A stretch of 64,000 nt of DNA from Lichina pygmaea (Eukaryota; Ascomycota; Lichinomycetes; Lichinales; Lichinaceae): positions 1-64,000 of the forward strand of contig OY730170.1 in the NCBI GenBank assembly GCA_963422465.1. Direction: 5' to 3'. Within the stretch, counting starts at the first letter, position 1, and each line of letters starts with the position of its first letter. Under the pieces are notes generated by a model. That model had not been told where the DNA came from. It was given only the letters and a program-made list of their open reading frames with translations, and ran no database searches. Positions 17,034-42,595 of the stretch are shown in pieces. A program made the position numbers and the translations under genes.

Positions 17034-17486
17034 ATGCAGTATACCTGGACCACTATCGTTGCCTTCCTTGCGTTGTTGCTGCTCTCCTACGATGTTGACG
17101 CTCAGTCTGCCTACTGCAACACCAAAACAAGCGCGACCCGGTACGTTCAAAACAACGAATACGCATACGCCTTCCGCTTCCAGGTTCCCGCTCTACAGTC
17201 GAGGGGCCGGATCGGAATCAAGTGCATCATGAATAGCGGGGCGAAAGGGAGTGCTGTGAAGACACTTCAGTACTCCATAAACAACTGTTACCGCCCTTCA
17301 CCAAGACTGGTGGTAGATGGCGACTACGGGCCACGTACCACGGCAGCGGTCAGGCGTGTACAGAGAAAGATCGGCACAGTCGCAGATGGGATCTACGGTT
17401 CCAGAACCCTGATCTTGATGAAGTTCTATGGTGTCGGGTTGAACGTCCAGAGACGACAGTGCGTTCGCTACGGTGTCTCAGCATAG
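17034..17486 (+). CDS. Secreted protein with a peptidoglycan-binding-like domain
   Basis: Intronless, 150 residues. Residues 1-23 form a clear signal peptide (hydrophobic core TIVAFLALLLL, likely cleavage after VDA). The C-terminal half resembles PG_binding_1 (three-helix, bacterial cell-wall-binding type): KTLQYSINNC, then LVVDGDYGPRTTAAVRRVQ at about residues 95-114, then a second partial GxYGSRT motif. Six Cys in the mature part could form disulfides. In bacteria this domain targets hydrolases to peptidoglycan; in fungi it occurs in some secreted proteins of unclear role. No catalytic domain accompanies it here. A secreted, cell-wall-directed or effector-like role is inference. Confidence 0.75.
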   Translation: MQYTWTTIVAFLALLLLSYDVDAQSAYCNTKTSATRYVQNNEYAYAFRFQVPALQSRGRIGIKCIMNSGAKGSAVKTLQYSINNCYRPSPRLVVDGDYGPRTTAAVRRVQRKIGTVADGIYGSRTLILMKFYGVGLNVQRRQCVRYGVSA

Positions 17487-17877: not shown

Positions 17878-20263
17878 TTATTTATTTTTTATTTATTTGA
17901 TTCTTACACTGGTAGTAGCTTTACAGCCATGCAGATCTTCTAGCTAATAGTGAACTCCTTCAGAAAACCTTTGAAGGGATAAAAACTGAAGGCAGGGTGT
18001 GACTAGGGAATGTAACAAAAGGAATCTTGAAGTTTCTGGTAAGAGAAGAGAATCTAGGTATTGGATTGGGAATAGTGGAGTTTGAAAGCTAGATTAAACT
18101 GGTTTAGTCTTTTCAAAGACATAAACCAGTACAAGAACTTCTGTAGTAGCTCTGGGTTTGAAATAATAGTGGTGAAGTCTTGGGGATTAAAAGAGACTTG
18201 TTGTCTTTGTCTTGAATAAAGAGAGCATGAAGAGGTGATATGTTTTGCAGTTTCTTCTGCTTGGCCACACACACATAGTGGGGTAGGGAAGTCAGGAGCT
18301 CCAGCTCTGAAAAGAAAACTTGCCAGACCAATTCTTCCAGTCCTGATTTGCAGTAGCAGACTTGCCTCAGCTTTCTGTAACTCTTTGTAGAGCTTCAGAT
18401 TGTTTTTGTGTGGCTTTTGACAGAAAGTCTGCCAGCCTGGATAACTTCTTCTTTTCTTCTCTTCCCATTGGTCTTCCCACTCTTTAGTAAAGAGCTTTTG
18501 TAGTTCTTTCTTTGAACTAGCCTGGTTAGTAGTTATTTGACTTAACCAAGTGAATTTCCACTTAGGAGAGATAGTTGAGGATTCCTTTAAAAGTTTCTTC
18601 AAGAGAGAGGCATAGCTGGAAATAGTGGAAAAGATACTGTCAAGAAAGTATTTGAGAGAGGAGTTTTGAATAGAAGAAAGAAAACAGGCAGTGCGAAATT
18701 TAAAGTATAGGTCTAGAGGTAGAAGAAAAAGCTCACTCTCTAATAGAAAAGAAGGAGTGGCTTTGAAGGCACCCCCAATAAGTCTTAGGCATCTGTTTTG
18801 AAATGAAACAAGAGAAGAGATATTGGAGGATTTTCTTAGAGAGTTAAACCAGATCCCCACTGCATAGCTCAGTAGAGATCTCAGTATAGCAGTGTACACC
18901 AGACGTGATGTGTGAACTGGAAAGCCCCAAGTAGAATAGGAAGTTCTAGAAAGAGAAGAGAGTGCTTTCTGTGCTTTTTGAAGGATAATCCTCTGGTGTT
19001 TGTGCCAGTGGAGCTTTGCATCTAGGTACACTCCAAGTACTCGCACTTCTTCTTTTGGTTTGAGAATCACATTCCCCAGTCTGAGCTTGAGCTGAAGATT
19101 GTCTGATCTTCTTCTGGAAAAATGAAGTATTTCATATTTCTCAGGTGAGAAGACTATTCCATGTCTTGCAGCCCAGGATAGACATTTGTGGTGTGTGTTC
19201 TTTAACTTCAGAAGGTTACTTTTCAAGGAGTGACCAAAAGCAAGCAGATTTGTATCATCTGCAAACTCCAGGGCAGATACACCAGAAGAGGGAGTATGCA
19301 CAGTCTCATGCAATTCAGAAATGTAGAATAGAAAAAGAATAGGGGATAATGGAGAACCTTGAGGAACTCCACAATGAATAGGAATAGAATAAGACTCAGA
19401 ATCATCAAAGACAAGAGTGGTAGAGCGCTTATCACAGAAGGAGTAGATCCAGGAAGCTAGCCAGGCAGGTATTCCTTTTCTTTTCAGAATTTGCTGTAGT
19501 ATCTTGGGGAGAACTCTGTCATAGGCTCCTGAGATATCCAGTGAGAGTAGGGATGCAACCATACCTTCCTTCCAGACTTTTTCCACTTGGGAGGTTAGAA
19601 GGAAAAGTGCTGCTTCTGTGGATCTTCCTTTCCTAAAGCCCATCTGGATATCTGGCAATAGTCCAGCTTCTTCTGCTATCTTGCTTAGTCTGGCTGCAGC
19701 AATAGCTTCCATCAGCTTGCCTGTTGTGTTTAGCAGAGCTATAGGGCGCCAGGCTTTAGCTTGATTGTAGGTTCCCTTGCCAGGTTTCCTCAAGCAGACT
19801 GTTTTTGCACTCTTAAATCTTTCAGGGAAGTACTCCAGTTTCCAGCATGTTGAAGTCAGAATAGCTAGAGCTTGGCAGAACCTAGGCCCCAGAGCTCTCA
19901 GAAATCCATTTGGCAGCTTATCTCTCCCTCCTGCTGTGAAAGGTTTCTTCTTGGCCAGAATTTGCTCCACTTCTTCACATGTTACCTCCTGGGAGAGCTG
20001 TATCTCAGAGATAGTCTGGGAGCTTTCTGAGCCTGGTTCTGGAACTAGAGCTTTTGGAAAGAACTGTTGTGAGAAGGCTTTAGTCTTTTCCTCAAAGGTT
20101 TTGGCTATTCCTTCTTGTGTTTCCAGGTCAGGAACCAGAGGAAGATCAGGAGTCTTGTTGGCTTTGGACTTTCCCCACTTTGCAAGCTTCCAGAACTTTG
20201 AAGAGCTGGCCAGCTCATGGATTTGGTGTCTGAAAGTGTTCTGTTTTCCATCTCTGACTGCCT
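17878..20263 (-). mobile_element. Tad-clade LINE, subfamily A, 5'-truncated, with 13-bp TSD
   Basis: Inserted in an LTR with TSD tggatcataatat on both sides. On the minus strand an open frame runs from the truncation to 18054 (at least 638 codons). It covers the linker, the reverse transcriptase with FADD near 19256-19267, and the C-terminal C-x-C-x7-H-x4-C motif near 18240-18280. The RT part is unbroken, so this is a relatively young copy, but it lacks ORF1 and endonuclease. The 3' end is the usual gtgtaagaatcaaat plus an A/T-rich tail (17878-17905 on the plus strand). Confidence 0.92.
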
Positions 20264-24941: not shown

Positions 24942-25485
24942 TGTTGCGGTCTGTACCGTACTGTCCTATCCGAGTATAGGATTAGGGCGAGAGGCGGAAG
25001 GCGGGTTGGTTCTCGCAGAAGAGGAGTGTCAAGGAGCGCGAAGGGGTTTGGTGGAACGTGGTGGTGGTGACACCTGATCAATGGCTTCGTACAAAAGGAT
25101 TGTATTGAAGTAGATCTAGTTGTCTGGATCACAACATGAGTTGAAGACGATTGTTCCATAGGGGAACTATCGCCTGGCTATATAGTGCCCAGTTCGTGAG
25201 CAGAGTGAGCTCTGCTCACTTTGCTCACTTTTCATGCACGCTGCGGCGAGCTGGGTGAGCTCTGCTCACTTTGCTCACTTTTCATGCACGCTGCGGCGAG
25301 CTGGGTGAGCTCTGCTCACTTTGCTCACTTGTTTGTGCATATGCATGCTGCGGCAAGCACCCCCTGGTTTGTCTCGCCAGTCACGTGACCGGTTCCCGTG
25401 TCACGCTGTCTGGTACTTCTGTCCAGTATCCTGTCTGCTGCTTTCTGTGAGTATATAAAGACTGTGTTCCTCCTGGGTCGTAACA
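24942..25485 (-). repeat. gypsy-1 3' LTR
   Basis: 544 bp, TGTTG...TAACA. It differs from the 5' LTR (42002-42595, 594 bp) mainly by one fewer copy of the internal 49-50-bp minisatellite unit (gctctgctcactttgctcac core). It interrupts the last exon of the glycosyltransferase gene. Confidence 0.9.
25452..25460 (+). promoter_or_regulatory. TATA box in the LTR pointing towards the antisense ORF
   Basis: tatataaag lies 25 bp before the LTR edge and 77 bp before the ATG at 25529, oriented against gag-pol. The same word is kept in the other LTR (42552-42560), while the telomeric copy has tatatacag. It is a good candidate core promoter for the antisense ORF; transcription is inferred, not shown. Confidence 0.5.
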
Positions 25486-25528: not shown

Positions 25529-25933
25529 ATGCCTCCAAAGTCACGTGCGACTGTTAGCCGAACTCAGCTGGCTGCTCAAATCCGCGATCAGGGTTTTGTT
25601 TCGCGTACACCCTGTGACTTTTGTGTTCTCCGTGGTTGTCTGTGCTTCCAGATGCCGGGAGAAGATGATAAGTTGAAATGTGCTGCGTGCACTCGGCGCG
25701 GAAGGTCTTGTGTCTCTGTGTCCTGGGAATCTTTGAACATGTCCCGGGACAACCTCCGTGAGGATGTTGCCGCTGACGAGGCAACACGCGATGCACTCTT
25801 TGAACAACTTGCCACAGTGCAGGCTTGTCTGTCTTGGAAGCGAAAGGTGTTAGAGGGCGCCGAGGTCTGTGTGAGGCAGAAGCTTCAGTGCTTGGTGAAA
25901 GAGATGGAGTCAGATGGCGAGGATTTGACTTGA
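25529..25933 (+). CDS. Antisense ORF of gypsy-1: Zn2Cys6 cluster plus coiled coil
   Basis: 134 residues, encoded opposite to gag-pol, between pol and the 3' LTR. Its stop is 4 bp from the pol stop (tail to tail). Cys29-x2-Cys32-x6-Cys39-x11-Cys51-x2-Cys54-x6-Cys61 exactly fits the Gal4-type binuclear zinc cluster pattern, and basic residues (TRRGRS) sit in the second half. Residues about 75-125 are rich in heptad-like Leu/Glu/Lys and could be a coiled coil for dimerisation. There is no middle-homology region. The frame is fully open in an element whose pol is damaged. A DNA-binding or transcriptional role is inference; a chance frame is unlikely, given the conserved counterparts at 28514, 45800, 56967 and 59337. 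Confidence 0.75.
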   Translation: MPPKSRATVSRTQLAAQIRDQGFVSRTPCDFCVLRGCLCFQMPGEDDKLKCAACTRRGRSCVSVSWESLNMSRDNLREDVAADEATRDALFEQLATVQACLSWKRKVLEGAEVCVRQKLQCLVKEMESDGEDLT

Positions 25934-25937
25934 TCGG

Positions 25938-28048
25938 TCATTGACACGTCCCTCCTGCAGGCTGAGCTGTTCGGTCCTGCTCCTGCTGAAACTGTCGCAG
26001 AAGAAGCCGGCAGTTCGCGAGGTTCTTGAGTGGTTCCCAGGTATTTTCCGAGTCTGGGTATCCTTTCCACTTGACGAGGTATTGCTGACCTTTTCTAGCC
26101 AGGATCTGTTCAACCTTGAACTCTTGTTCTTCTTCGGGTTGGTAATGGAATGTTTCCTGCAAGGGTGTGCTCTGGTCGGCTGGTTCAATCATTGATATAT
26201 GAAAGTTTGGATGGACTCTGGCATCCCTTGGTAGTCGTATCTTGATGTTGACTGGTCCTGTTTTTTCTTCGACCGAAAATAGTCCAACCTTGATGTTGTC
26301 AAGTTTCTTTGTCTTTGGTTTCTTTGTTTTCCAATTTCTTGTAAGGAGGTAGACTTTATCCTCCTTCTTTAGCTGAGGTGCCATTTTTGATTTCTTGTCC
26401 ATTTGACGTTGCATTCTTTCTGAGGTCTCTTGAAGGTAGTGCCTCATCATTGTGTGTGTTTGTCGTAGGAGCTTGTCATGTTGGAGTGCTTTCTCCGTGT
26501 TTGGTGAAGCTCTGCTTGGCATCCTGATGTTTGTATGTTGTCCAAAATTGGCAAAAAATAGTGATTCCTTTGTTGAGTCTGATCTGTGCTGGTTGATTGC
26601 CAGCTGTGCCACCAGTAATAACTGTACCCAATTACTGTGGGTCTGGTTGATGTAATGCCGTAAGTAAGTCTCCAGGACTTGGTTTGCTTGCTCTGTCTGG
26701 CTGTCAGTTTGTGGGTGATAGGCCGTAGACATTTTGGGTTTTGTTCCTATGGCTGCACTGATTGTCTTCCAGTAGTTGGATGTGAAGAGTTTGTCTCTGT
26801 CTGTAATGATCATGATCAGAACTCCGTGGTCTCTGACCAATCTGTCCAGTAAAAGGTGTCCCAACTGTTCTGCTGTGTGGGTCTTCTTGAATAGTACCAC
26901 TATTAGATATTTTGTGAATCTGTCCACTATCACCATAATCAAGTTGTAGGTGATTCCTGTGACTGGGTCCTTGGACTTGGGTAGCTTTGTGATGAAGTCC
27001 ATTGACATGTCTTCCCACAGGCCTCTCAGTATCGTGTTTGGGTGTCCTTCTCTGTATAGCTTGTGTTTTCCATGTTTGTTTTTCTGGCATAGTAGACACT
27101 TGCTGATGTAGTTTGTGACATGTTGTCAGAGGTTAATGACATTGTTCCCTGCCTGTTGGATAAGGTCTGTGGTCTTGGAGATTCCTGGGTGACCATGTGC
27201 TGGGTTGTCGTGGTAGTTCCTTATTAGTTCTTCAGTGTCTTCTGCCGTGAGCTTGTTGATCTGTGGCTGAGGCACCAGGTTTCCTTGCTGGTCCTGCTGT
27301 AAGATCATTCCTTGGTGTTCATCATCTTCTATGTAGTCTTTTTGTCAGCTTAGTGTGTCTACTCTCCTGTTGTCTTGTCCAGGGGTGTACAAGATCTTGA
27401 ACTTGTGTTGCCCTAGGAGTTCAGCCTATCTGACTTGCCGTCTGTTCAGCTTCTTGGTTGTTGTGAACGTTGTCAGATTCTTGTGGTCTGTGAGAACAGT
27501 GAGTTCAGAACTGCTTTCTGTGTACACTCTCCAGTGTTCAAGTGTGTTGACAACTGCCAATAGCTCTTTGTTGTGGATATCATAGTTTTGTTCCGCTTGT
27601 GTTATTTTTTGTGAGTAGTAGGCAACTGGGTGCCACTTGCTGTCTGCCTGTTGGCATAGACATGCTCCTACTGCCTGATCTGAAGTGTCTGTCTTGATTT
27701 GTGTTGGTTGGCCTGTCTTGAAGTTGAGGAGAACTGGTTTCTTGGCGCAAGCGTCCTTGAGCTGTTGGAATACTTTTTGTTATCTCTCCATCCACTGGTA
27801 CTCCACGTTCTTCTTCGTGAGTTCTGTCAGTAGTGTTGCCATCTGTGAGTAGTTCTTTATGAACTGTCAGTTGAAGTTGGCAAATCCTAGGAAGGCTTGT
27901 ACTTCCTTAACTGACATCAGTGTTGGCCATTGCTGAATCACTTTGATTTTCTCAAGGTTAATCTTGATCCCTTTGATCCCTATGACATATCCAAGGAATT
28001 CAACTTCCAGTTTGTTGAACTCGCATTTCTTTGGGTTGAGCTTGAGCC
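25938..28048 (-). pseudogene. gypsy-1 pol, 3' part: RNase H, integrase, chromodomain
   Basis: Read on the minus strand from the gypsy-2 insertion: RNase H (KTDTSDQAVGACLCQ, HNKELLAVV), then the integrase zinc-binding region (HDNPAHGHPGISKT), then the catalytic core in an open frame 27008-25938 (MDFITKLPKSKDPVTG, DSQTEQANQVLE). The frame ends with a chromodomain (VEQILARKGQQYLVKWKGYP, NTWEPLKNL), which defines a chromovirus and would direct integration to modified histones. In-frame stops occur near 27121, 27345, 27445 and 27780, several at positions where Trp is expected. Confidence 0.9.
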
Positions 28049-28461
28049 TGTTAAAGGCCAGTCCACGTTCACACAGAATGTGGGTGGTCCTGTCTTTGAC
28101 CGAGGAGGGCAGAGACTCAATAGATGAATAGCAAGTGGGGTAACTCTCTTGCTATTGTCGCTCGTAATGTGCATTCAGCCTGGAGAGCTATTCTCTCCGG
28201 CTATCTGGGTTCTTATATACAGGAGCCTGAGGGGGGGGGGTCCTCCCGAGGGGTATCAGCTTTCTGCGTGGACAAGCTGGACAAGATGGTTACACATCGT
28301 CCACCTCGTCCACCGGGTCGGGTGAACATTGTTCCTGTGGATGAGCTGGACGAGCTGGTTACACATCGTCCACCTTGTCCACCGGGTCGGGTGAACATTG
28401 TTCCGTGTACCTCTGTACACTTGCTTCGGTCAGCTCAGCTGTTCCGGCCTGGGCCTTAACA
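28049..28461 (-). repeat. gypsy-2 3' LTR
   Basis: Starts TGTTAAAGG and ends CTTAACA. On the minus strand it has tatataag (28219-28212), the likely sense promoter TATA. Two copies of an internal repeat (gtccacc...cgggtcgggtgaacattgttcc) lie at 28310-28405. A run of ten G (28229-28238) is present in both LTRs. Confidence 0.93.
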
Positions 28462-28513
28462 CCATCCCCTCCCTCCAAAGGTTCTGTCCCCAGATCCTCT
28501 CGCTTCTCTTACC

Positions 28514-29044
28514 ATGACCCGGACATCTTGTGTTAATCGTCGTGGAGTCCTCGGTTCTCGTGTTGGCAAGATGGGCAAGGTATCCAAAGTTTCATGCAGC
28601 GCATGTCGTCGTGACTGTGCCAAGTGTGTCGTCAGTTCAGAGTCCACATTTTGCGGTCAGTGCCTTGAGAAGGGTCGCCGTTGTGATCTCCATCTCGCGG
28701 AGTCGGAGTGGGAGAAGATGGAGCTTGAGCGCACTCAGCTTGAGGCTCAACTGAAGGAGATCGAGGAGCAGGAGTCTGTTCTCCTTCCTCGCAAACTTCG
28801 TCTCCGTCGTCAGTTGGGTGTGTTGTCCAAGAAGGAGGGTGAGGCCATCAAGCGTGAGCTTGCTGCGATCGAGGATCAGGAGGATCTCGAGCAGGAGGCT
28901 ACGCGTGTGGAGTCCCCGCCGCCTTTGGAGGACTTCTTCTCTTCGGAGGCCTTGGCTTCTCTCGAGCCTTTGTCTCCATCAATCCTGGCTTCTGCGGGTT
29001 TTGTCGGTGGAAACTCCGCAGCTTCTCGTTCGTCGCAGGGCTGA
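28514..29044 (+). CDS. Antisense ORF of gypsy-2: Zn2Cys6 cluster plus coiled coil
   Basis: 176 residues, encoded against gag-pol. Its 3' end overlaps the pol 3' end (stop at 28899) by about 146 bp. Cys28-x2-Cys31-x6-Cys38-x8-Cys47-x2-Cys50-x6-Cys57 matches a Gal4-type Zn2Cys6 cluster (SCSACRRDCAKC ... CGQCLEKGRRCD). A strongly charged Glu/Leu/Arg region at about 60-130 (ERTQLEAQLKEIEEQE) predicts a coiled coil, and an acidic, Pro/Ser-rich tail (about 131-165) could be an activation-type region. The frame has no lesion although pol has several. Compare 25529-25933. Function is inferred from domains only. Confidence 0.78.
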   Translation: MTRTSCVNRRGVLGSRVGKMGKVSKVSCSACRRDCAKCVVSSESTFCGQCLEKGRRCDLHLAESEWEKMELERTQLEAQLKEIEEQESVLLPRKLRLRRQLGVLSKKEGEAIKRELAAIEDQEDLEQEATRVESPPPLEDFFSSEALASLEPLSPSILASAGFVGGNSAASRSSQG

Positions 29045-32000
29045 AGTTCTCGGTGGGTTCCCACGAGTTCTCCTCATTGTCATACCCTAACCACTTGACC
29101 AGGTATTCGATTTTCTGTCCACTTCTCCGGCTGTCTAGGATCCTTTTGATATCGTACTCTTCTTCGTCGTCCTCGAAGTGCCATTCTGTTTTGATTGCTG
29201 CGTCGCTGGGTGCTGGCTCGAGCAGCGAGACGTGGAATACTCGGTGTATCCGTGCCTTTTTTGGCAGTCTCAGTCGGTAGTTGACTTCTCCAGTGCGCTT
29301 CTCAATCTCAAACAGTCCGATTCGTACATGATCCAGCTTTTTGCTCAGTCACTTCGAGCGCAGGTTTTTTGTTGACAAATAGACCTTATCCCCCCTCTCC
29401 AGGGTTGGTCCCTTCAACCTTTTGCTGTTTAGGCGGTGGCTTGTTGTCTTTTGTGCGGATTCAATTGCAGTCTTCATTTCCTCATGCATAGCAGTGAGTT
29501 TTTCGATGTTTGTTGAAGTGCCACTTCCAGCCGCCATCGCTTCCCAGCGGGGGTTTCTGCCGTAGTTCGCAAAGAACAGCGTCATGCCTGTCACGCTGTG
29601 TTGCTGATCGTTGTACGCAAACTGAGCCATTGGTAGCAGTTCTACCCAATCGTCCTGTCGGTGGTTGACGTAGTGGCGTAGGTACTGTTCCATCGTCTGG
29701 TTTGTTCTCTCAGTTTGTCTGTCTGTTTGTGGATGGTAGGCAGTAGACATCCTCGTGTCTATCCCTAGCTGTCTTGTCCACGTGTTCCAGAATTTCAAGG
29801 TGAAGAGTTTGTCTCGATCTGAGATAATCTTCGTGGGTAGCCCTCGCTGGCTAACCAATTCTTTGAGCAGGACATTGGCGAGTTCGCTCGCTGTTCCTGT
29901 CTCTCGCCACAGGATCAGGTGAGCGTATTTGGTGAGTTTGTCGACAACCACCAAGATACTGTCATATTTCACCTTTGTTACCGGGTCCTCTGACCTCGGC
30001 AGCTTCACCACAAAATCCATTGTGATGGTATCCCAAGCCACTTCTGGGAGGTCCATTTGTTGACTCTCTCCATAGGGTTTGTGGCGTGACAGTTTGTTTT
30101 TCGCACACTCTTCGCAGTTGCGAATAAATTCCGTCACTTTCCACTTTATTCTGTTGAAGTGGTAACATCTCCGGATCTTTTCCAGGGTCTTGTCTTGCCC
30201 AGGATGTCTGTGTAGAGGTCCATCGTGATGTTGTCGAATCACGTCCTCTTGTGTGCTCTCTGGCACTTCTTCCTTGTTCGTGGCCGCAACGTTGTGGCCT
30301 AGGGTCAGGAGTGCACCCATTTCTTCAGTTTTCGCTAACTGAGGTTGAGCATAGACCAGAGTTTGTCCTTTTGTCACTAGGATTGGGTGCTCTTCTGTCG
30401 TGTTGTCTGTCGTCATATCAGGCTGTCTGCTAAGCGCGTCCGCTCGTGCGTTTTCTGATCCTTTTCGATAGAAGATCTGGAAGTCGTATGAAGCTAAAAG
30501 CTCCGCCCATCAGACTTGTCGTCTGTTTAGCTTCTTCATCATCGTGAAGTAAGCCAAATTCTTGTGGTCTGAGTACATGTCCACTGTGTACTTTGCTCCT
30601 TCCAGGTAAGGTCTCCACTCCTGGAATGTGTCGACAATCGCTAACAACTCCTTGTTGTGAACATCATACCTGAGTTCTGGGCCAGAGAACTTTCTCGATC
30701 AGTATGCGACAGGGTGTAGGCAGTTTTCGGCGTCTGGTTGACACAAGCAAGATCCAAGTGCTTGGTCCGAGGCATCTGTCTCCATGATGATCCGCCGTCC
30801 GGGATCAAATGATGCCAGTATGGGTGCGGAGGTGAACTTCTCTTTCAGCTCCTGGAACGCTCTCTCTTGGCTGTTCCCCCATGTGAAGGTTTCTTCCTTC
30901 TTTGTTAGTTCAGTCAAGGGTGCTGCTGTCCTCGAGTACTCCTTGATGAATCGTCGGTAGAAGTTCGCAAATCCCAGGAAGGATTGGACTTCTTTGAGGT
31001 TTTTGGGTGTTGGCCAGTCTCGTACTGCCGTGATCTTTGTATCGTCTATACGGATTCCTTCCGTCGTCAGGATCGATCCCAAATATTCCACTTCTTTCAC
31101 GTGGAAAACACTCTTATCAAGGCGTAACCTCATTCCTACTTCTTGGAGCGCATGTAGGATCTTCTTGACATGCTGTCTGTGCTCCTCCAGGGTTCCATTG
31201 GTGTAAACCAAGACATCGTCGATATAAGCAGTAACAAATATATCCAGGTATTGTCGGAGGATGGCGTTAATGAGTGATTGGAATGTCGCCGGTGCATTCG
31301 TAAGGCTGAATAGCATAACAGTATACTCGTAATGCCCGTACCTCGTACGAAAGGCTGTCTTCCATTCTTCGCCATCTTTCATCCTAACCAGGTTGAAAGC
31401 GCCTCAGATGTCGAACTTGGTAAACCACTTGGCTCCTTGGATTCAGTCCTGGATTTCTGATATTAACAGTAGCGGGTAGCGATTCTTAATCGTGATCGCA
31501 TTAAGCTGCTGGTAGTCAACACACAGTCGTAATTTGCCGTCCTTCTTTGGCACAAACAATATTGGGTATCCGGCCGGTGATGTTGAAGGTCTTATGAACT
31601 CTTTCGCTAGGTTCTCGTCCAGGTAATCTCTTAAGGCCTCAAGCTCCTTTGCTGATAGAGTGTAAATAGGGCTATGTGTGGGTTTCTTTCTGTCTTCCAG
31701 CGGAATTTCGTGATCCCACTCTTGGTGTTCTGGTAGCGTCACGACCACTTCCTCACCAAACATCTCCTGGTAGTCTTTATACTCACTTGGCAGCTGCGGT
31801 GCCTGAGTCTTGCCCACGGCGTCATGCGTGGTGCAAAGTTGATGGTTTCGGAGCTTCATCCAAGCCACATAGGCTCGCCCTCGCCGGTGGTGCTTCTTCC
31901 ACCCTGCATATGAGATCTCTTTGATTCTCACTTTCTCTGGCTCTGCTCGAGTTGCCAGACTCTTCTTCGGAAAGACTAGGTGCCTTCTTTTCCAGTCGAT

Positions 32001-32507
32001 CCTTGGGTTTTGACTTTCCAACCATGGAAGACCTAATATAACTTCATGTGGTATCTGGACCAAGTCGAATTCTTCTGATCCGATTGTCGTACTGTCGACA
32101 CACAGTCGTAGGTTCTTGGTCTCCTTTGTCACTTGTCCTTGGTCGTTGGAGAGTGGTGTCCCGTCTACTACCGTTAGTTGGTATAGATTCCTCTTTTCCT
32201 GAGTCGGGATCTTGTGCTTCCTGGCGAAACTTTCTGACATGAAGTTGCCAGTAGCTCCAGAGTCGATCATGGCGTTTGTCAGATGCCTGTTGACTCTCAT
32301 CTTGATGTGAAAATGCGGACTGCAGGCTGTCGTGTCGAGGCTCTGCTCGACCCCTTCTCTCCGGAGTGTTGTCTTGCCTGCTCTTCCGACTCCGGATTTG
32401 AAGAGCACTGCTAGTTTTTTGAACAACCAAGGCTCTGAGCCTGGTGTTCTGCCACGTGTCTTTCGCATTTTTCGGTGAAGCATAGCTCCCATGCGTCTTC
32501 TCCGCAA
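28899..32507 (-). pseudogene. gypsy-2 pol: protease, RT, RNase H, integrase, chromodomain
   Basis: A single reading frame, -1 relative to gag, carries protease ([10 protein letters not shown]), RT with intact YIDD (near 31225), RNase H (METDASDQALG), integrase (HHDGPLHRHPGQDKT, then WDTITMDFVVKLP) and chromodomain (KIEYLVKWLGYDNEENSWEP, near 29105). It is interrupted by in-frame TGA codons at about 31443, 31386, 30698, 30510 and 29349, where Trp or Arg is expected; none is TAG. The stop is TAG at 28901-28899. The element is dead or nearly so unless these codons are recoded. Confidence 0.9.
32360..32420 (-). promoter_or_regulatory. gypsy-2 gag-pol -1 ribosomal frameshift signal (slippery site and pseudoknot)
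   Basis: On the minus strand, gag ends TCA AAA AAC TAG: the heptamer A AAA AAC (32420-32414) fits X XXY YYZ for tandem -1 slippage. After a 6-nt spacer (32413-32408) comes an 8-bp stem TGCTCTTC (32407-32400) with GAAGAGCA (32386-32379). Loop bases TCCGGAGT (32396-32389) pair perfectly with ACTCCGGA (32367-32360), giving an H-type pseudoknot with loops of 3, 2 and 11 nt. The -1 frame is the pol frame. Seen directly; function is inferred from the general architecture of such signals. Confidence 0.8.
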
Positions 32508-33955
32508 TCATCGTGTTCTTTCCCTTGCTGGCTTAGCTGGTGCTTGATGCTCCAGGCTTTCTTGTGGTATTCTGGGCCAGGGAAGTAGTGCCTTCTTCTT
32601 TTCTCTAGGAGATGTTCCTTGCAGTGGTGGTCCTCGCATCCTTTCCAATAAGGACGTCCGCAGGCTGGTGTCGTAGCCTGGTGATGGTCCACTTGCACTG
32701 CGATGTCTTGGGGCTGTGAGATACTGATGGTGTCATCCACCCATCGCGTCACTCTTGCTTCGCCGTCCTCCGACAAGGTCGCATCCTGTTGTCGGAGTAG
32801 TGGTGTCTCGGGAACTGGTGGCATGCCGGTTATGTCAATCTCGTAGTCTGTTGTGTCGAATTCGGAGATCAGGTCATCCTCCCAATGAACCTTATCGATC
32901 TGGTCTTGGATTGTGTGCAGGTCCTCCAGTGACCTCTGCAGATTGTTCTCCAGTCTTTCGATGTGCTGTCTGAGATTGTCCTCCTGTCCGAGGAGTGTTG
33001 CTTCTGACCGGTTCATGGGTAGCGTGCCTCTGGGAGCCCTCGGTGGCTCCTGAATGCCTTTGCCTTTCCAGGCACCAGTGGCATTCAACTGCTTACCCTT
33101 GCCTTCTTTCTTCCTCTTGCTTTGGCAGTTGGCTGCGAGGTGTCCTACCTTCTGGCAATTGTAACACTTCCGTGTTTCTTTCTTCTTTGTTGCCTGTGGT
33201 GTTGTTGCATTGATCTCCATGGGTGTCAAGCCATACTTGTCTTGTGCTGGCACTGTCTTTTTGCCCCATGGCCTTGCATGCTTGCCTCGCTTCTCGAGTT
33301 CTTGTTCAAATTGTCGGTTGTCGATGCGTACCGCTGTGTCAATCATATCCTCGAGGTCGGTGGGTCAGTCTCCTTGTGCGATGTCGTCCTTGACTTGTTC
33401 CTTGAGAGCTTGGTAGAATAGTGCTGTCAAGGCACTGTCTCCCCATTGCGTCCTCACTGACAACTGTTGGAACTTCGCCGCAAAGTCTGATGCTGACCCT
33501 GTCTGCCGTAGTGCTTGGAGCTTTCGTTCCACATCTTGTTCTTCATCAATGACCCCGAAGGTCTTCTTCATCTGGGTCTTGAAGGTAGAGAATCTCCCAA
33601 TGATCTGCCGTGTTGTGGTCTCCATGCTAGAGGGGTCTTCCTTGTTGTCGAGGAAGTCTTGTAGGTAGACATTGAACCAGGCAAATGTCGGTCTGTCCAG
33701 GTAGGAAGCTGCGAACAGCACCTTCTCCTGTTCCGTAGGGAATTGTGCGGTGTTGAATCTGTAGTAAAGCTCAAGCTGAGAGAAGAATAATTCCAATCCC
33801 CCTTGTGATCCATCGTACCTCTTCGGCGTACCTACCTTCAACGGCTTTGGAGGTAAGGTGAGGGTGGTAGGGACAGGTGGTTCCTGGACTTGCGCCTGAG
33901 GCGCAGCCCAAACTTGGCCTGCCTGCGAAGGGGTAGGGCTGCGTGGATCTGCCAT
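32411..33955 (-). pseudogene. gypsy-2 gag
   Basis: One frame of about 515 codons starting MADPRSPTPS, with a capsid domain (KRYDGSQGGLELFFSQLELY, then WFNVYLQDFL) and a CCHC knuckle, CYNCQKVGHLAANC, near 33180-33140. A single TGA at 33364-33362 replaces an expected Trp (QGD-W-PTDLED). It ends at TAG 32413-32411, immediately after the slippery heptamer. Confidence 0.88.
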
Positions 33956-33993
33956 CGTATTGAGCCGGTGTCCTATGTGTTAGAGGCTGAAAC

Positions 33994-34406
33994 TGTTAAA
34001 GGCCAGTCCACGTTCACACAGAATGTGGGTGGTCCTGTCTTCGACCGAGGAGGGCAGGGACTCAATAGATGAATAGCAAGTGGGGTAACTCTCTTGCTAT
34101 TGTCGCTCGTAATGTGCGTTCAGCCTGGAGAGCTATTCTCTCCGGCTATCTGGGTTCTTATATACAGGAGCCTGAGGGGGGGGGGTCCTCCCGAGGGGTA
34201 TCAGCTTTCTGCGTGGACGAGCTGGACAAGATGGTTACACATCGTCCACCTCATCCACCGGGTCGGGTGAACATTGTTCCTGTGGACGAGCTGGACAAGC
34301 TGGTTACACATCGTCCACCTCGTCCACCGGGTCGGGTGAACATTGTTCCGTGTACCTCTGTACACTCGCTTCGGTCGGCTCAGCCGTTCCGGCCTGGGCC
34401 TTAACA
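33994..34406 (-). repeat. gypsy-2 5' LTR
   Basis: 413 bp, the same ends as the 3' LTR, followed on the right by the TSD GAGCC (34407-34411). On the minus strand the gag ATG (33955) lies 39 bp inside the LTR edge. The sequence next to the LTR (gtttcagcctctaacacat on the minus strand) is not an obvious tRNA-complementary primer site. Confidence 0.93.
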
Positions 34407-36522: not shown

Positions 36523-37965
36523 GTGACCCTTTGTGAACAACCCACTGTGCAGGTTACCTACCCTATGCCTGTCAAAAAGAAGAAACCGGACTCCTCCCAG
36601 AACACTACCAGAAAAACAACACCTTCTCCAACAATGCCAGCTCCCAGTTCTGCTGGTACTCAGCCTAGTTCTTCTACCCCCTATCCAGCTCTCCAGAATG
36701 ACTACAACCTACTGGACTCATGGCTCAAGACTCAAGCTACCCCAGAATCTGTACTGAAAAGCTGGGAGAATATTAAGAAAAACTCTTGTACTAATGAAGC
36801 CCAGTCCACCAAAACCCAGTCTCTCCCCACTGGTCTGACCAACAAGATTTTCCAGGAGCTGGAGAATATTAGCAAGCGGCTAGACAAGCAAGAATCTAAG
36901 CCATCATATGCCCAGGCTGTTCAGAAACATATCCCAGCTCAAATCCCTCTAGCTCCAAGGATTCTGAAGGAAGTTCTTGTCCACCCTGGTAACCAGACAC
37001 CTGATATGGCCAACAGGACTCACATCCAGCTTTTTCAAGCTCTCCAAGACAGACTCCCCAGTCTCTATAATAAACAAGTCAGAGCAGTGAGAAAACTTCC
37101 CTCAGGGGACATTCTTATTAACACTGAAACCCAAGAGACTAAGAGTTTTCTGGAGAAAGACTCTGCCTGGATATCAGCTATTTTTACCAAGGAAGCAACT
37201 ATCCAACCCAAGAGATTCCCAGTGTTGATTCATGGAGTCAGAACCACAGACATCCAGCCAGAAAACCTGGAAAAAACTCGCCAGACTATCCAGAACAGCA
37301 ACCCATCCCTGAGCAAGCAAATCACTATTCTAAGAGCCTACTGGTCAAAGAAGGCTATAGCTCAAAAGAAACCAGTTACTTCACTCCACCTGGATCTGGC
37401 CACCCCGGAACAGGCCAATCTTCTAATTGAGAGTGGAGTAGTGCTGGGCCACAGATTGCATGAGGCAGAGTCTTTTCTGGCTAACACAGTGGTGGCACAA
37501 TGCTTCAAGTGCTTTGGGTATGGACACCAAGCTTGCCTGTGCAGGAATCAAGCTGTATGTGGTGCCTGTGGAGGCCAGCATGAAAGAAGAACCTGCCAAA
37601 TCCCTAAGCAACTGCTAAAGCCAAAATGCAGCAACTGCAAAGGAGCTCACCCAGCCTGGGCTAGCACATGCCCAGTACGCCAAGAAGCAGTCAAGAAGGT
37701 AAGAGAGGCATGGATTTCCCGCCCAGGGAAGTATGAGATCTCCACTGCTACCACTGTCCCAGTCACACAGTCTCCAGTTACTTTCCTCTTCATACAGACT
37801 CTTCCAGGGGGAAAAAGACGGAAAACCACAGAGCCAACTAGAAGCTCAGAGAGACTCAGAGGAGGGTCTCCAGAAGTGCAAATTCTGTCTACAAGATCAA
37901 CAAACACAGGGGGAAAGCAGTCAGTCAACCCCTTCAAGATCTTTGAAGATGAAATGTCTACATGA
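36523..37965 (+). CDS. LINE ORF1 (Gag-like RNA-binding protein)
   Basis: 480 residues. A Ser/Thr/Pro-rich N-terminus is followed by a central region (RILKEVLVHPGNQ, about 145-320) typical of Tad/I-clade ORF1 proteins. Three zinc knuckles then occur at about residues 327-383: C-x2-C-x4-H-x4-C (CFKCFGYGHQACLC), C-x2-C-x3-H-x4-C (CGACGGQHERRTC) and C-x2-C-x3-H-x6-C (CSNCKGAHPAWASTC). It binds the element RNA to form the ribonucleoprotein. The stop overlaps the ORF2 start as ATGA. The start is the first ATG after the 5' UTR. Confidence 0.88.
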   Translation: MTLCEQPTVQVTYPMPVKKKKPDSSQNTTRKTTPSPTMPAPSSAGTQPSSSTPYPALQNDYNLLDSWLKTQATPESVLKSWENIKKNSCTNEAQSTKTQSLPTGLTNKIFQELENISKRLDKQESKPSYAQAVQKHIPAQIPLAPRILKEVLVHPGNQTPDMANRTHIQLFQALQDRLPSLYNKQVRAVRKLPSGDILINTETQETKSFLEKDSAWISAIFTKEATIQPKRFPVLIHGVRTTDIQPENLEKTRQTIQNSNPSLSKQITILRAYWSKKAIAQKKPVTSLHLDLATPEQANLLIESGVVLGHRLHEAESFLANTVVAQCFKCFGYGHQACLCRNQAVCGACGGQHERRTCQIPKQLLKPKCSNCKGAHPAWASTCPVRQEAVKKVREAWISRPGKYEISTATTVPVTQSPVTFLFIQTLPGGKRRKTTEPTRSSERLRGGSPEVQILSTRSTNTGGKQSVNPFKIFEDEMST

Positions 37966-40900
37966 AGAATACAAAGTTCACACTTCTTCAATACAATGTG
38001 CAGAAAAGCCAATCAGTCCAAGAGCTACTTCTAGCAACCCCAACTCTTCAAGAAGTAGATATTATTGCACTTCAAGAACCCTGGAAGAATCCTCACCTTC
38101 AAACCAGCACCTCAACTGTTTTTTCTTCTTTTCTTCCTTTATTTTCTCCAGAGATTGGTAGAACTCTTTTTCTTATTAACAAAAACCTGAATCTGTCATC
38201 TCTCCACCCTACTTTCTGGAGTAAAGACTTTGTTTCTCTTGAAATTCATCTGGAAAACACCTCTACTTCTCTGTGGGTGCATAATCTATACTTCACTCCC
38301 TCAAGTCAAGAGAACTACCTACAAGCATCAGAAGCTCTTCTCTGTCTACTCCAAAATGCTTTACAAGCAAAAGGGCAGCATATTCTTCTTACAGACTCAA
38401 ATCTTCACCACCCTGACTGGTCAAAGAAAAGAAGACTATATTCTGACACTGCACACAAGTTCCAAACTCTAATGAAAAACTCAAATCTGGAGTTAGCTAT
38501 TGCACCTTTTACACCCACAAGAGCTAGATCTCTTTCCCACAAACCCTGTTCACCTATTGATCTTTCCTTTATATCTTCTTCTCTTTCTAACTCTCTAATC
38601 TTTTCTAAAATTGCTTTGCAGTTCTTTCATAGGTCTGACCACAGACCTGTGCTAACTAGCCTGGACCTGGACTCACCAAGAAAAACCTGGAAGCCAGAAA
38701 GGAACTGGAAAACACTGGACACAAACCTGGCAAAACAAGAGTGTAATAATTTGCAGCTGCCCTTCCACTTTCAAGATAAACATGAAGTGGACGAGTACTT
38801 GGAATATCTTAACCACTTTCTCCAAGAAATAGCAGACAGATGCACAGAACTCCAGAAGCAATCTAGCCACTCAGTCCCCTGGTGGAACCAAGAGATCCAA
38901 ACTAAAGTTAAGCAGGAAAGAAGAATAAGAAGACAAGTGCTCAGAGGACAGGCAAGCCAAGAAGAGCTAGAAGAAGCAACTAAGCTCAAGAAGAAAGCTG
39001 TCAGAGAAGGCAAACAGAACACCTTCAGAAAACAAGTTCATGAGCTAGCCAGTTCCTCAAAATTCTGGAAGCTTGCAAAGTGGGGAAAATCAAAAGCTAA
39101 CAAGACCCCTGATCTTCCTCTGGTCCCTGATCTGGAGACTCAAGAAGGACTAGCCAAAAGCTTTGAGGAGAAGACAAAATCTTTCTCAGCTCAATTCTTT
39201 CCAGAAGCACGTGTTCCAGAACCAAGTACAGAAAGTCACCAGAGTACCCCAGAGATCCAGCTTTCTCAGGAGGTTACCACTGAAGAAGTGGAGCAAATTC
39301 TGAACAAGAAGAAACCTTTTACAGCAGGAGGAAAAGACAAGCTGCCAAATGGATTTCTGAAAGCTCTGGGTCCCAAGTTCTGCCAAGCTATAGCTGTTCT
39401 CACATCAACATACTGGAGACTGGAATACTTTCCAGAGAAATTCAAGAATGCAAAAACAGTCTGTCTAAGAAAACCTGGCAAGGGAATCTATAACCAAGCT
39501 AAAGCCTGGCACCCTATAGCTCTGCTAAACACAACTGGCAAGCTGATGGAAGCTATTACAGCAGCCAGACTAAGCAAGGTAGCAGAAGAGGCTAAACTCT
39601 TGCCAGAAATCCAGATGGGGTTCAGGAAAGGCAGATCAACTGAATCAGCACTCTTCCTTCTAACTTCCCAAGTGGAAAAAGTCTGGAAAGAAGGCATGGT
39701 TGCATCTCTACTTTCTCTGGACATCTCAGGAGCATATGACAGAGTTCTTCCAGAGATTCTTCAAAAGATTCTGGAGAGAAAAGGAATCCCTCTCTGGCTA
39801 ACTTCTTGGATCTTCTCTTTCTGTACCAGATGTACCACCACCCTAGTTTTTGATGACTCTGAGTCCTCTTCTATTCCTATTCACTGTGGAGTTCCCCAAG
39901 GTTCCCCTTTGTCTCCTATTCTTTTTCTATTCTATATTTCTGAACTTCATGAGACTGTACATTCTCCTACTACTGGTGTTTCTGCTCTGGGATTTGCAGA
40001 TGATACAAATCTGCTTGCATTTGGACACTCTCTTAAAAGCAACCTTCTGAAGTTGAAGAATACACATCTTAAATGTCTATCTTGGGCTGCAAGACATGGA
40101 ATGGTCTTCTCTCCTGAGAAATATGAAATACTTCATTTTTCCAGAAGAAGATCAGACAATCTGCAGCTCAAGCTTAGACTTGGGAATGTGATTCTAAAAC
40201 CAAAAGAAGAAGTGCGAGTATTGGGAGTGTACCTGGATGCCAAACTCCACTGGCACAAACACCAGAGAATTATTCTTCAAAAAGCACAAAAAGCACTATC
40301 TTCTCTTTCTAGAACCTCTTACTCCACCTGGGGCTTTCCAGTTCTCACAGCACGCCTTGTGTACACTGCAATACTCAGATCTGTACTGAGCTATGCAGTG
40401 GGAATTTGGTTCAACCCACTCAGAAAATCCTCTAATATTTCCTCTCTTATCATATTCCAAAACAAATGTCTGAGACTTATTGGGGGTGCTTTCAAAGCCA
40501 CTCCTTCTTTTCTATTAGAGAGTGAGCTTTTTCTTTTACCTCTAGATCTCTATTTTAAATTTCACACAGCTTGTTTTCTATCTTCTATCCAAACCTCCTC
40601 TCTGAAAGACTTTCTTGACAGTACCTTTTCTACTATTTCTTCCTATGCTTCTTCACTGAGGAAACCTTTAAAGAAATACTCAACTATCTCTCCTAATTGG
40701 AAGTTCACTTGGTTAAGTCAAATAACTACTAACCAGGCTAGTTCAAAGAAAGAACTACAAATACTCTTTACTAAAGAGTGGGAAAACCAATGGGAGGAGA
40801 AGAAAAGAAAAGGCTATGCTGGATGGCAGGTGTTTTGCCAAAAACCTCACTACAACAACCTAAAGCTCTACAAAGAGCTACAGAAAGCTGAGGCAAGTCT

Positions 40901-41204
40901 ACTACTGCAAACCAGAACTGGGAGAATTGGTCTAGCAAGTTTTCTTTTCAGAGCTGGAGTCCCTGACTTTCCTACCCCCCTATGCATGTGTGGTCAAGCA
41001 GAAGAGACAGTAAAGCATATCACCTTTTCATGCTCTCTCTACTCAAGTCAAAGACAACATGCTCTCTTTAACCCCCAAGATTTCACTACTATTATTTCAA
41101 ACCCAGAGCTTCTACAGAAGTTTCTGTACTGGTTTATGTCTTTGAAAAGACTAAACCAATTTAATCTGGCTTTCAAACTTCACTATTCACACTCCAACAT
41201 CTAG
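37962..41204 (+). CDS. LINE ORF2 (AP-endonuclease and reverse transcriptase)
   Basis: 1080 residues. The APE-type endonuclease has LLQYNVQ, ALQEPW (about 35), LLTDSNLHHPDW (about 145) and SDHRPVL (about 225), the expected catalytic set. The RT domain has GRSTESALFLL, GVPQGSPLSPILF and FADD at residues 678-681. A C-terminal C-x-C-x7-H-x4-C motif is at about 1008 (CMCGQAEETVKHITFSC). No RNase H domain is seen. It nicks target DNA and primes cDNA synthesis there. Translation probably depends on re-initiation or coupling at the 4-nt ATGA overlap with ORF1. Confidence 0.95.
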   Translation: MKNTKFTLLQYNVQKSQSVQELLLATPTLQEVDIIALQEPWKNPHLQTSTSTVFSSFLPLFSPEIGRTLFLINKNLNLSSLHPTFWSKDFVSLEIHLENTSTSLWVHNLYFTPSSQENYLQASEALLCLLQNALQAKGQHILLTDSNLHHPDWSKKRRLYSDTAHKFQTLMKNSNLELAIAPFTPTRARSLSHKPCSPIDLSFISSSLSNSLIFSKIALQFFHRSDHRPVLTSLDLDSPRKTWKPERNWKTLDTNLAKQECNNLQLPFHFQDKHEVDEYLEYLNHFLQEIADRCTELQKQSSHSVPWWNQEIQTKVKQERRIRRQVLRGQASQEELEEATKLKKKAVREGKQNTFRKQVHELASSSKFWKLAKWGKSKANKTPDLPLVPDLETQEGLAKSFEEKTKSFSAQFFPEARVPEPSTESHQSTPEIQLSQEVTTEEVEQILNKKKPFTAGGKDKLPNGFLKALGPKFCQAIAVLTSTYWRLEYFPEKFKNAKTVCLRKPGKGIYNQAKAWHPIALLNTTGKLMEAITAARLSKVAEEAKLLPEIQMGFRKGRSTESALFLLTSQVEKVWKEGMVASLLSLDISGAYDRVLPEILQKILERKGIPLWLTSWIFSFCTRCTTTLVFDDSESSSIPIHCGVPQGSPLSPILFLFYISELHETVHSPTTGVSALGFADDTNLLAFGHSLKSNLLKLKNTHLKCLSWAARHGMVFSPEKYEILHFSRRRSDNLQLKLRLGNVILKPKEEVRVLGVYLDAKLHWHKHQRIILQKAQKALSSLSRTSYSTWGFPVLTARLVYTAILRSVLSYAVGIWFNPLRKSSNISSLIIFQNKCLRLIGGAFKATPSFLLESELFLLPLDLYFKFHTACFLSSIQTSSLKDFLDSTFSTISSYASSLRKPLKKYSTISPNWKFTWLSQITTNQASSKKELQILFTKEWENQWEEKKRKGYAGWQVFCQKPHYNNLKLYKELQKAEASLLLQTRTGRIGLASFLFRAGVPDFPTPLCMCGQAEETVKHITFSCSLYSSQRQHALFNPQDFTTIISNPELLQKFLYWFMSLKRLNQFNLAFKLHYSHSNI

Positions 41205-42001: not shown

Positions 42002-42595
42002 TGTTGCAGTCTGTACTGTACTGTCCTATCTGAGTATAGGATTAGGGTGAGAGGTGGAAGGTGGGTTGGTTCTTGCAGGAGAGGAGTGTCAAGGAGTGTG
42101 AAGGGGTTTGGTGGAATGTGGTGGTGGTGACACCTGATCAACAGCTTTGTACAAAAGGATTGTATTGAAGTAGATCTAGTTGTCTGGATCACAACATGAG
42201 TTGAAGACGATTGTTCCATAGGGGAACTATCACCTGGCTATATAGTGCCCAGTTTGTGAGCAGAGTGAGCTCTGCTCACTTTGCTCACTTTTCATGCACA
42301 CTGCGGCGAGCTGGGTGAGCTCTGCTCACTTTGCTCACTTTTCATGCACGCTGCGGTGAGCTGGGTGAGCTCTGCTCACTTTGCTCACTTTTCATGCACG
42401 CTGCGGCAAGCTGGGTGAGCTCTGCTCACTTTGCTCACTTGTTCGTGCATATGCATACTGCGGCAAGCACCCTCTGGTTTGTCTCACCGGTCACATGACC
42501 GGTTCCCGTGTCACACTGTCTGGTACTTCTGTCCAGTATCCTGTCTGCTGCTTTCTGTGAGTATATAAAGACTGTGTTCCTCCTGGGTCGTAACA
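42002..42595 (-). repeat. gypsy-1 5' LTR
   Basis: 594 bp, TGTTG...TAACA, with four copies of the roughly 50-bp minisatellite unit between 42258 and 42450. Its outer edge joins directly to the inverted part of a LINE (42596), so the original host flank and TSD are missing. Confidence 0.9.

Follow-up and report, generated by a model that had tools for sequence, protein, structure and literature searches.

An antisense Zn2Cys6-like gene of Ty3/gypsy elements in Lichina pygmaea, and evidence for its exchange together with the neighbouring U3

Antisense genes close to the 3′ long terminal repeat (LTR) have been described in plants, in retroviruses and in a single fungal family. Zhao et al. reportedly described the fungal case, brtn, in 2011 (Virology 417:248), in Boty-like elements of Botrytis cinerea and Sclerotinia sclerotiorum. 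Passages of three papers present brtn as an additional, antisense gene of Boty-like gypsy elements (PMC7264820, PMC8365987, PMC4227169), and a passage of a fourth mentions a BRTN-like transcript in Monilinia (PMC5987419). For plant gypsy elements, the passages at hand name antisense open reading frames (ORFs) in Retand (TRP28), Grande (gene23) and RIRE2; TRP28 is there predicted to bind DNA, proposed to be regulatory and kept in most copies (PMC11963269, PMC7264820). For human T-lymphotropic virus (HTLV), the 3′ LTR is stated to contain an antisense promoter (PMC7264820), and another paper refers to an additional ORF with no known function (PMC2864245). Here we analyse the first 64,000 nucleotides of contig OY730170.1 of the ascomycete Lichina pygmaea (assembly GCA_963422465.1; hereafter the window), in which a retrotransposon, gypsy-1, carries an antisense ORF, aORF-1, between pol and the 3′ LTR. 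The original prediction, made from the sequence of the window, knew of no fungal gypsy family with this arrangement. That was wrong, because an antisense gene at this place had been reported for Boty in 2011, as far as the passages on brtn go. The gene of gypsy-1 belongs to a known class, that of accessory genes antisense to an LTR retrotransposon, and its function is putative. One further feature is strongly supported: its exchange together with U3 in two families. We recognised no paper that deals with an antisense gene of the Zn2Cys6 kind or with a cassette exchange like this one among the titles and abstract beginnings of the open-access PubMed Central (PMC) literature, which leaves most subscription journals outside, and the word "antisense" is absent from PMC2864245, PMC4427930, PMC11540331, PMC3248453 and PMC4595289.

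The layout of gypsy-1 is as predicted: pol ends at 25938, the LTR starts at 25485, and the ORF lies between them in the opposite orientation.

25529..25933, forward strand: aORF-1, antisense Zn2Cys6-like and coiled-coil ORF of gypsy-1, open for 134 codons
25613..25711, forward strand: six-cysteine cluster C29–C61 of aORF-1, from the cysteine positions, their conservation and model helices 30–35 and 52–57
25724..25912, forward strand: predicted long helix (coiled coil), residues 66–128 of aORF-1, from the model of the 166-residue relative P0002
25938..27008, reverse strand: 3′ part of gypsy-1 pol with integrase core, Tf2-1-like SH3 and chromodomain (Pfam)
24942..25485, reverse strand: 3′ LTR of gypsy-1, 544 bp, beginning with TGTTACG at 25485

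The C terminus of gypsy-1 pol is a chromodomain (PF00385, E 7.9e-16, approximately 25983–26114), which identifies the element as a chromovirus; its integrase core scores below the Pfam cut-off. In the window copy, 43 nt separate the edge of the 3′ LTR from the ATG of aORF-1. A second element of the window has a similar gene, to which the original prediction does not refer.

28049..34406, reverse strand: gypsy-2, second Ty3/gypsy element, nested in gypsy-1, with the 5-bp repeat GAGCC on both flanks
28514..29044, forward strand: aORF-2, antisense Zn2Cys6-like and coiled-coil ORF of gypsy-2, 176 codons, with an inner ATG at 28571
28899..29044: convergent overlap of the 3′ ends of gypsy-2 pol and aORF-2, 146 bp

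The C terminus of gypsy-2 pol is chromodomain-like, as judged by alignment to gypsy-1 pol alone.

We searched the genome (32.5 Mb, 8 contigs) and found at least 150 matches for each ORF, scoring the best 150 of 502 first-look candidates for aORF-1 and the best 150 of 282 for aORF-2. The loci read comprise 30 of the window gypsy-1 type (G1A), 20 of its sister type (G1B, approximately 67% protein identity to G1A), 30 of the window gypsy-2 type (G2A) and 20 of its sister type (G2B, 68% to G2A); the G1B and G2B loci were taken from matches with no or few stops. The survey covers about 100 distinct copies and, beyond the types present in the window, long stretches of pol for three copies. In all 100 loci, across the four subfamilies, the ORF is followed directly by an antisense gypsy-1-like pol C terminus, and 43, 44, 52 or 124 nt separate its ATG (an inner one in G2B) from the upstream LTR edge, TAACA. 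The gene thus sits antisense in gypsy elements, with pol on one side and the 3′ LTR on the other. The layout recurs among public proteins: 13 of 42 family members with an MPPKS-type start continue in frame through a translated LTR edge, 44 nt from the ATG, and another family protein, P0114, extends into the antisense strand of the chromodomain. The MPPKS-start type, represented by P0013, has no match above 59% identity in this genome.

The sister types share most of the element and differ in one part of it. Between G1A and G1B, R-U5 and the sense TATA are shared (98% over 248 bp in one pair), whereas U3 and the ORF differ. We compared 30 copies with one sister-type copy in 100-bp bins, using gapped alignment where indels interfere. 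From the LTR into the element, identity between G1A and G1B is 0.97 in R-U5, 0.77 in the border bin, 0.50–0.68 in U3, 0.63–0.74 in the ORF, 0.84–0.88 in the pol tail and 0.88–0.92 in pol; the control within G1A gives 0.92–0.98, with lower values in the outermost bin, at 0.90, and in a single pol bin, at 0.89. For G2A against G2B, the values are 0.94 in R-U5 (control 0.99), 0.59–0.79 in U3, 0.68–0.82 in the ORF and 0.94–0.99 in pol (control 0.96–0.99). Synonymous divergence between G2A and G2B is 1.34 in the ORF and 0.035 in pol, with 0.053 for pol within G2A (pairs above 90% identity kept, 29 of 30 between the types and 406 of 435 within G2A). Since synonymous divergence itself differs 38-fold, we reject faster evolution in place of exchange for gypsy-2.

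We then chose places by their pol sequence and paired them by hand, from the lists, with the ORF matches. All 40 places nearest to the window gypsy-2 pol (601 bp, 98–100% identity) have an antisense ORF match, 24 of type G2A (at least 90% protein identity) and 16 of type G2B (65–71%), at a pol-to-ORF spacing of 729 or 765 bp with one exception (635). In that list, ranks two and three (99%) are of the G2B type. The 40 nearest gypsy-1 pol places (96–100%) comprise 26 G1A and 9 G1B, and 5 that are not among the best 150 matches listed. Two G2B copies, C6 and C2, have the same cassette (bins of 0.91–0.98, leaving aside one U3 bin taken up by a gap), but their identity is 0.68–0.88 in pol from +840 on and 0.66–0.73 in R-U5, so one G2B cassette is found on two different backbones. 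The type of U3, judged on the 100 bp beside the LTR edge with six references per type, agrees with the type of the ORF in 100 of 100 loci. Together, the places picked by pol, the shared cassette on differing backbones and the agreement of U3 with the ORF strongly support that U3, the antisense ORF and the 3′ end of pol move as one block in both families, with borders near U3/R and inside pol. What is new here is that the ORF and the adjacent U3 act as one exchangeable cassette. The two are exchanged as a unit, which would be that of a regulator–operator module if, as we infer, U3 holds the target of the protein.

Sixteen of the 30 G1A copies, picked by similarity to aORF-1, are stop-free across the 134 codons, and each of the other five frames has stops in all 30. 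Homologous elements thus do carry an open frame. The ratio of nonsynonymous to synonymous divergence (dN/dS) is 0.12 between G1A and G1B and 0.15 between G2A and G2B outside the pol overlap (first 15 copies of each type), and 0.18 (gypsy-1) and 0.20 (gypsy-2) over the whole ORF with all 600 pairs each, far below the value of about 1 expected of a frame without function. Other forward frames give 1.24–2.64 and the reverse frames 1.06–2.20, except the mirror frame (0.23 and 0.41), which shares its third codon positions with the ORF and is interrupted by stops in all 100 copies. For comparison, dN/dS of the last 110 pol codons is 0.16. Two G2B lineages differ over codons 1–105 by a dN of 0.004 and a dS of 0.216. 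The ORF is real and under purifying selection. That the window copy is clean, as originally described, is partly luck; beyond chance are the frame, the only one of six that is not stopped throughout the 30 G1A copies, and its low dN/dS.

Within families, we counted nonsynonymous against synonymous changes (N/S), by itself a weak test, in which values lean low because the loci were picked by ORF similarity and those of G1B and G2B also among stop-free matches. For CpG-type transitions, N/S is 0.94 in G1A, 1.21 in G1B, 0.95 in G2A and 0.52 in G2B. For other changes it is 0.29 (0.15–0.60) in G1A, 0.42 (0.25–0.93) in G1B, 0.58 (0.19–2.17, not different from 1) in G2A and 0.16 (0.07–0.43) in G2B. 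CpG-type transitions make up approximately 81% of the pairwise differences within G1A and, with their N/S of 0.94, are as expected of decay after insertion. Their prevalence in G1A is unlike the CpA pattern of classical repeat-induced point mutation.

The length of aORF-1 varies. A stop directly follows codon 134 in 24 of the 30 G1A copies, including that of the window, and 4 of 30 are open over 166 codons and overlap the 3′ end of pol. In longer copies the frame reaches approximately 26029, and the window copy crosses one in-frame stop on the way; the window aORF-1 is an incomplete version of the gene. The short form ends at the start of the pol overlap, and the truncated form may thus itself have spread.

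The first cysteines of aORF-1 are at residues 29, 32, 37, 39, 51, 54 and 61; leaving out the extra Cys37, they read C-x2-C-x6-C-x11-C-x2-C-x6-C, which bears out the Gal4-type spacing predicted for the open 134-codon frame. The positions do not vary freely. Many of the 123 family proteins compared are partial; counting those that extend to a given position, C29 is kept in 56 of 56, C32 in 56 of 56, C39 in 52 of 56, C51 in 91 of 96, C54 in 94 of 96 and C61 in 92 of 96. Distant G1 relatives have spacings of x2, x6, x8–11, x2 and x6. aORF-2 reads C-x2-C-x6-C-x8-C-x2-C-x6-C, leaving aside one extra cysteine, followed by a helix-like tail, and the full pattern is present in 10 of 17 G2-type proteins, 9 of them with the 8-residue loop. 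The spacing of PF00172 is C-x2-C-x6-C-x(5–12)-C-x2-C-x(6–8)-C, and the six-cysteine spacing of our proteins agrees with it. The gathering score (21 bits) is not reached by the G2 proteins (15.8 and 14.9 bits), and PF00172 is not among the Pfam matches of the G1 proteins; we therefore call the cluster Zn2Cys6-like and do not assign it to PF00172.

In the model of P0002, residues 66–128 form a single helix with a block-mean predicted local distance difference test score of at least 90 from residue 71, in agreement with the coiled coil that had been thought likely. The best fold matches of the protein are weak and are Zn2Cys6 proteins, DNA-binding regulators; the top Foldseek row is a CBF3 chain (E 1.4, not significant). 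The non-significant matches of the gypsy-2 profile include HAP1 (CYP1) and LEU3 (E 0.73–3.4). In most gypsy-2 copies shown, the cluster contains a Gal4-like C-x2-C-R-R-D-R/H-A-K-C stretch, and in the alignment the gypsy-1 cluster is without the usual basic stretch. A sequence search of the PDB with the antisense ORF proteins gave no significant match, and the TRP28 domain PF04195 is absent from their Pfam matches at E 10 or 1. A DUF3716 match of P0002 (E 0.055) was rejected as below threshold; the name was found in no paper of the open-access PMC literature. Alignment of aORF-1 to aORF-2 with hhalign (E 4.6e-4, probability 33%; with fewer rows, E 0.0058 and 6.4%) is suggestive of a common origin.

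The LTRs contain candidate control sequences for both strands.

25452..25458, forward strand: antisense TATA box TATATAA at the outer LTR edge, 77 nt upstream of the aORF-1 ATG
25178..25184, reverse strand: TATA-like box TATATAG of the LTR in sense orientation, shared by the compared LTRs of G1A and G1B
25198..25330: tandem array in gypsy-1 U3, 50-bp unit repeated 2.7 times, containing short inverted repeats; putative target of the aORF-1 product
28268..28404: tandem array in U3 of the gypsy-2 LTR, 69-bp unit repeated twice

TATATAA is found at −77 in 30 of 30 G1A loci, and G1B has TATAAAT at −79 (16 of 20) or −80 (4 of 20); an antisense TATA box is thus present in 50 of 50 gypsy-1 loci, and the U3 around it is scarcely alignable between G1A and G1B. 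gypsy-2 has no such box within 150 bp (0 of 30 G2A, 0 of 20 G2B). The array of G1B U3 consists of a 42-bp unit repeated 2.5 times (one copy each was read for the G1A, G1B and G2A arrays). Counting inverted repeats with 6-bp arms and a spacer of up to 15 in one U3 each of G1A, G1B and G2A, we found 14 in G1A and 16 in G1B against shuffle means of 1.3 and 1.5, numbers that 0 of 300 shuffles reach and that are inflated by the tandem copies; G2A has 3, which 36 of 300 shuffles reach. Judged by their sequence, the arrays would suit a dimeric regulator and are candidate targets.

We propose that aORF-1 is an accessory gene of a chromovirus and encodes a Zn2Cys6-like dimeric regulator of the U3 of its own cassette, tuning sense transcription, and put the probability of this at roughly 0.55. 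An antisense promoter within the 3′ LTR would drive the gene; with the TATA box 77–80 nt upstream of the ATG, transcription of the gypsy-1 gene would start approximately 30 nt downstream of the box, near the LTR edge. The product would dimerise via the long helix, bind DNA via the cysteine cluster and, at the U3 repeat array of its cassette, tune sense transcription of its own family. The acidic and aromatic C-terminal segment of aORF-2, LEDFFSSEALASLEPL, leans weakly towards activation over repression. That the element may encode its own regulator, as had been suggested, fits these features and is strengthened by the cassette exchange. Strong-stop transfer and template switching are established in retroviral reverse transcription, and borders near U3/R and inside pol are as expected of them. 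Exchange would then occur when minus-strand strong-stop DNA (R-U5) made on one RNA is transferred to R at the 3′ end of another, packaged alongside it, after which U3 and the ORF would be copied from this second RNA before a switch back inside pol. By analogy, the cassettes may be immunity-type modules, in which the protein would act on the U3 of its own cassette alone, regulator and target would be swapped by inter-molecular strand transfer, and families would escape cross-regulation or silencing by their relatives, in two families independently. We regard this extension as possible, with the odds somewhat against it.

The strongest competitor, although rather unlikely in our view, is that strand transfer and template switching bring about the exchange as a neutral side effect and that the protein acts elsewhere (for instance on host genes, in nuclear import, on chromatin or at integration sites), with U3 travelling along. 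The extent of the block agrees with this, as it includes 3′ pol (identity of 0.84–0.88 beside the ORF in gypsy-1; to approximately +800 in C6 and C2), and so does the closeness of the LTR edge to the ATG, 43–124 nt. Mere linkage sits less well with two families that each keep two old cassettes (dS above 1 in the ORF) on far more similar backbones, or with weak fold matches that are DNA-binding regulators; the lack of any mismatched ORF/U3 pair in 100 loci points the same way, though linkage alone could yield it. A role in protein–protein contacts or chromatin, with a structural cysteine cluster and a scaffold coiled coil as in CBF3, serving silencing escape or localisation and not transcription, appears unlikely: the CBF3 chain at the top of the non-significant Foldseek list and the missing basic stretch in gypsy-1 are in its favour, whereas the Gal4-like stretch of the gypsy-2 cluster and the HAP1 and LEU3 matches of its profile, non-significant as they are, speak against it.

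Two further explanations concern the frame itself. If the antisense RNA were the agent, controlling the element through double-stranded or small interfering RNA, the open frame would be incidental. The convergent overlap of aORF-2 with pol would yield double-stranded RNA, and a passage on plant elements discusses such a mechanism (PMC7264820). RNA pairing needs no constraint on codons, however, and both the dN/dS of 0.12–0.15 between types and the near absence of amino acid changes between the two G2B lineages make this explanation very improbable. A chance ORF, or the shadow of a sense-strand gene, deserves next to no weight. It could draw on the low dN/dS of the mirror frame and on another reverse frame that is open in 13 of 20 G1B and 12 of 20 G2B copies, but the mirror frame is interrupted in every copy, the partly open frame is broken in 60 of 60 G1A and G2A copies and has a dN/dS of 1.88 and 2.2, and it is as the antisense ORF protein that distant relatives are found. 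We consider a chance ORF excluded by the dN/dS values and frame controls.

Several other observations were made in the window. The presumed 5′ LTR of gypsy-1 (42002–42595) is 87% identical to the 3′ LTR, but the flanking 5-mers are unlike (CTGAT and CACAC), and it may belong to another copy. An antisense TATA box is also present at its edge (42562), where it would fire outwards into flanking DNA. LINE-like (long interspersed nuclear element) frames with reverse transcriptase matches lie at 36523–41204 and 18054–19970; one of them, inside the span of gypsy-1, has 1080 open codons and an endonuclease match as well. A 150-residue ORF at 17034–17486 has a peptidoglycan-binding domain (PF01471, E 1.9e-10) and a start that looks signal-like.

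The antisense ORF combines the look of a DNA-binding protein with measurable selection and, in gypsy-1, a candidate promoter. The exchange provides a natural experiment: since near-identical elements differ mainly in regulator and U3, what the antisense gene regulates becomes directly testable. Should the protein act on its own U3, retrotransposons would possess modules of self-regulation that can be exchanged, which would bear on copy-number control and on the coexistence of sister families.

Among known systems, brtn shares with our gene its place as an antisense extra gene between pol and the 3′ LTR of fungal gypsy elements with a chromodomain; compared by description only, the passages on brtn mention no Zn2Cys6 domain, antisense TATA box at the LTR edge or cassette exchange. 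The antisense ORFs of Retand, Grande and RIRE2, as far as the passages describe them, agree in place and orientation and differ in the protein, since no TRP28 was found in our Pfam scans. HBZ of HTLV-1 is an antisense-encoded bZIP protein; it is alike as an antisense regulator from the 3′ LTR and unlike in being bZIP and not a zinc cluster, and we claim no sequence kinship. With Zn2Cys6 regulators of the Gal4, HAP1 and PUT3 type, our proteins share the six-cysteine spacing, the order of cluster and helix and a weak fold match. They differ in being encoded by an element, in scoring below the Pfam threshold and in being far shorter, typical Zn2Cys6 regulators being far longer than these proteins. 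The immunity regions of lambdoid phages hold regulator and operators in a single module, which is swapped between genomes that are otherwise alike. The likeness to our cassettes is one of analogy only, as here the carrier is a retrotransposon and the exchange presumably proceeds by reverse transcription.
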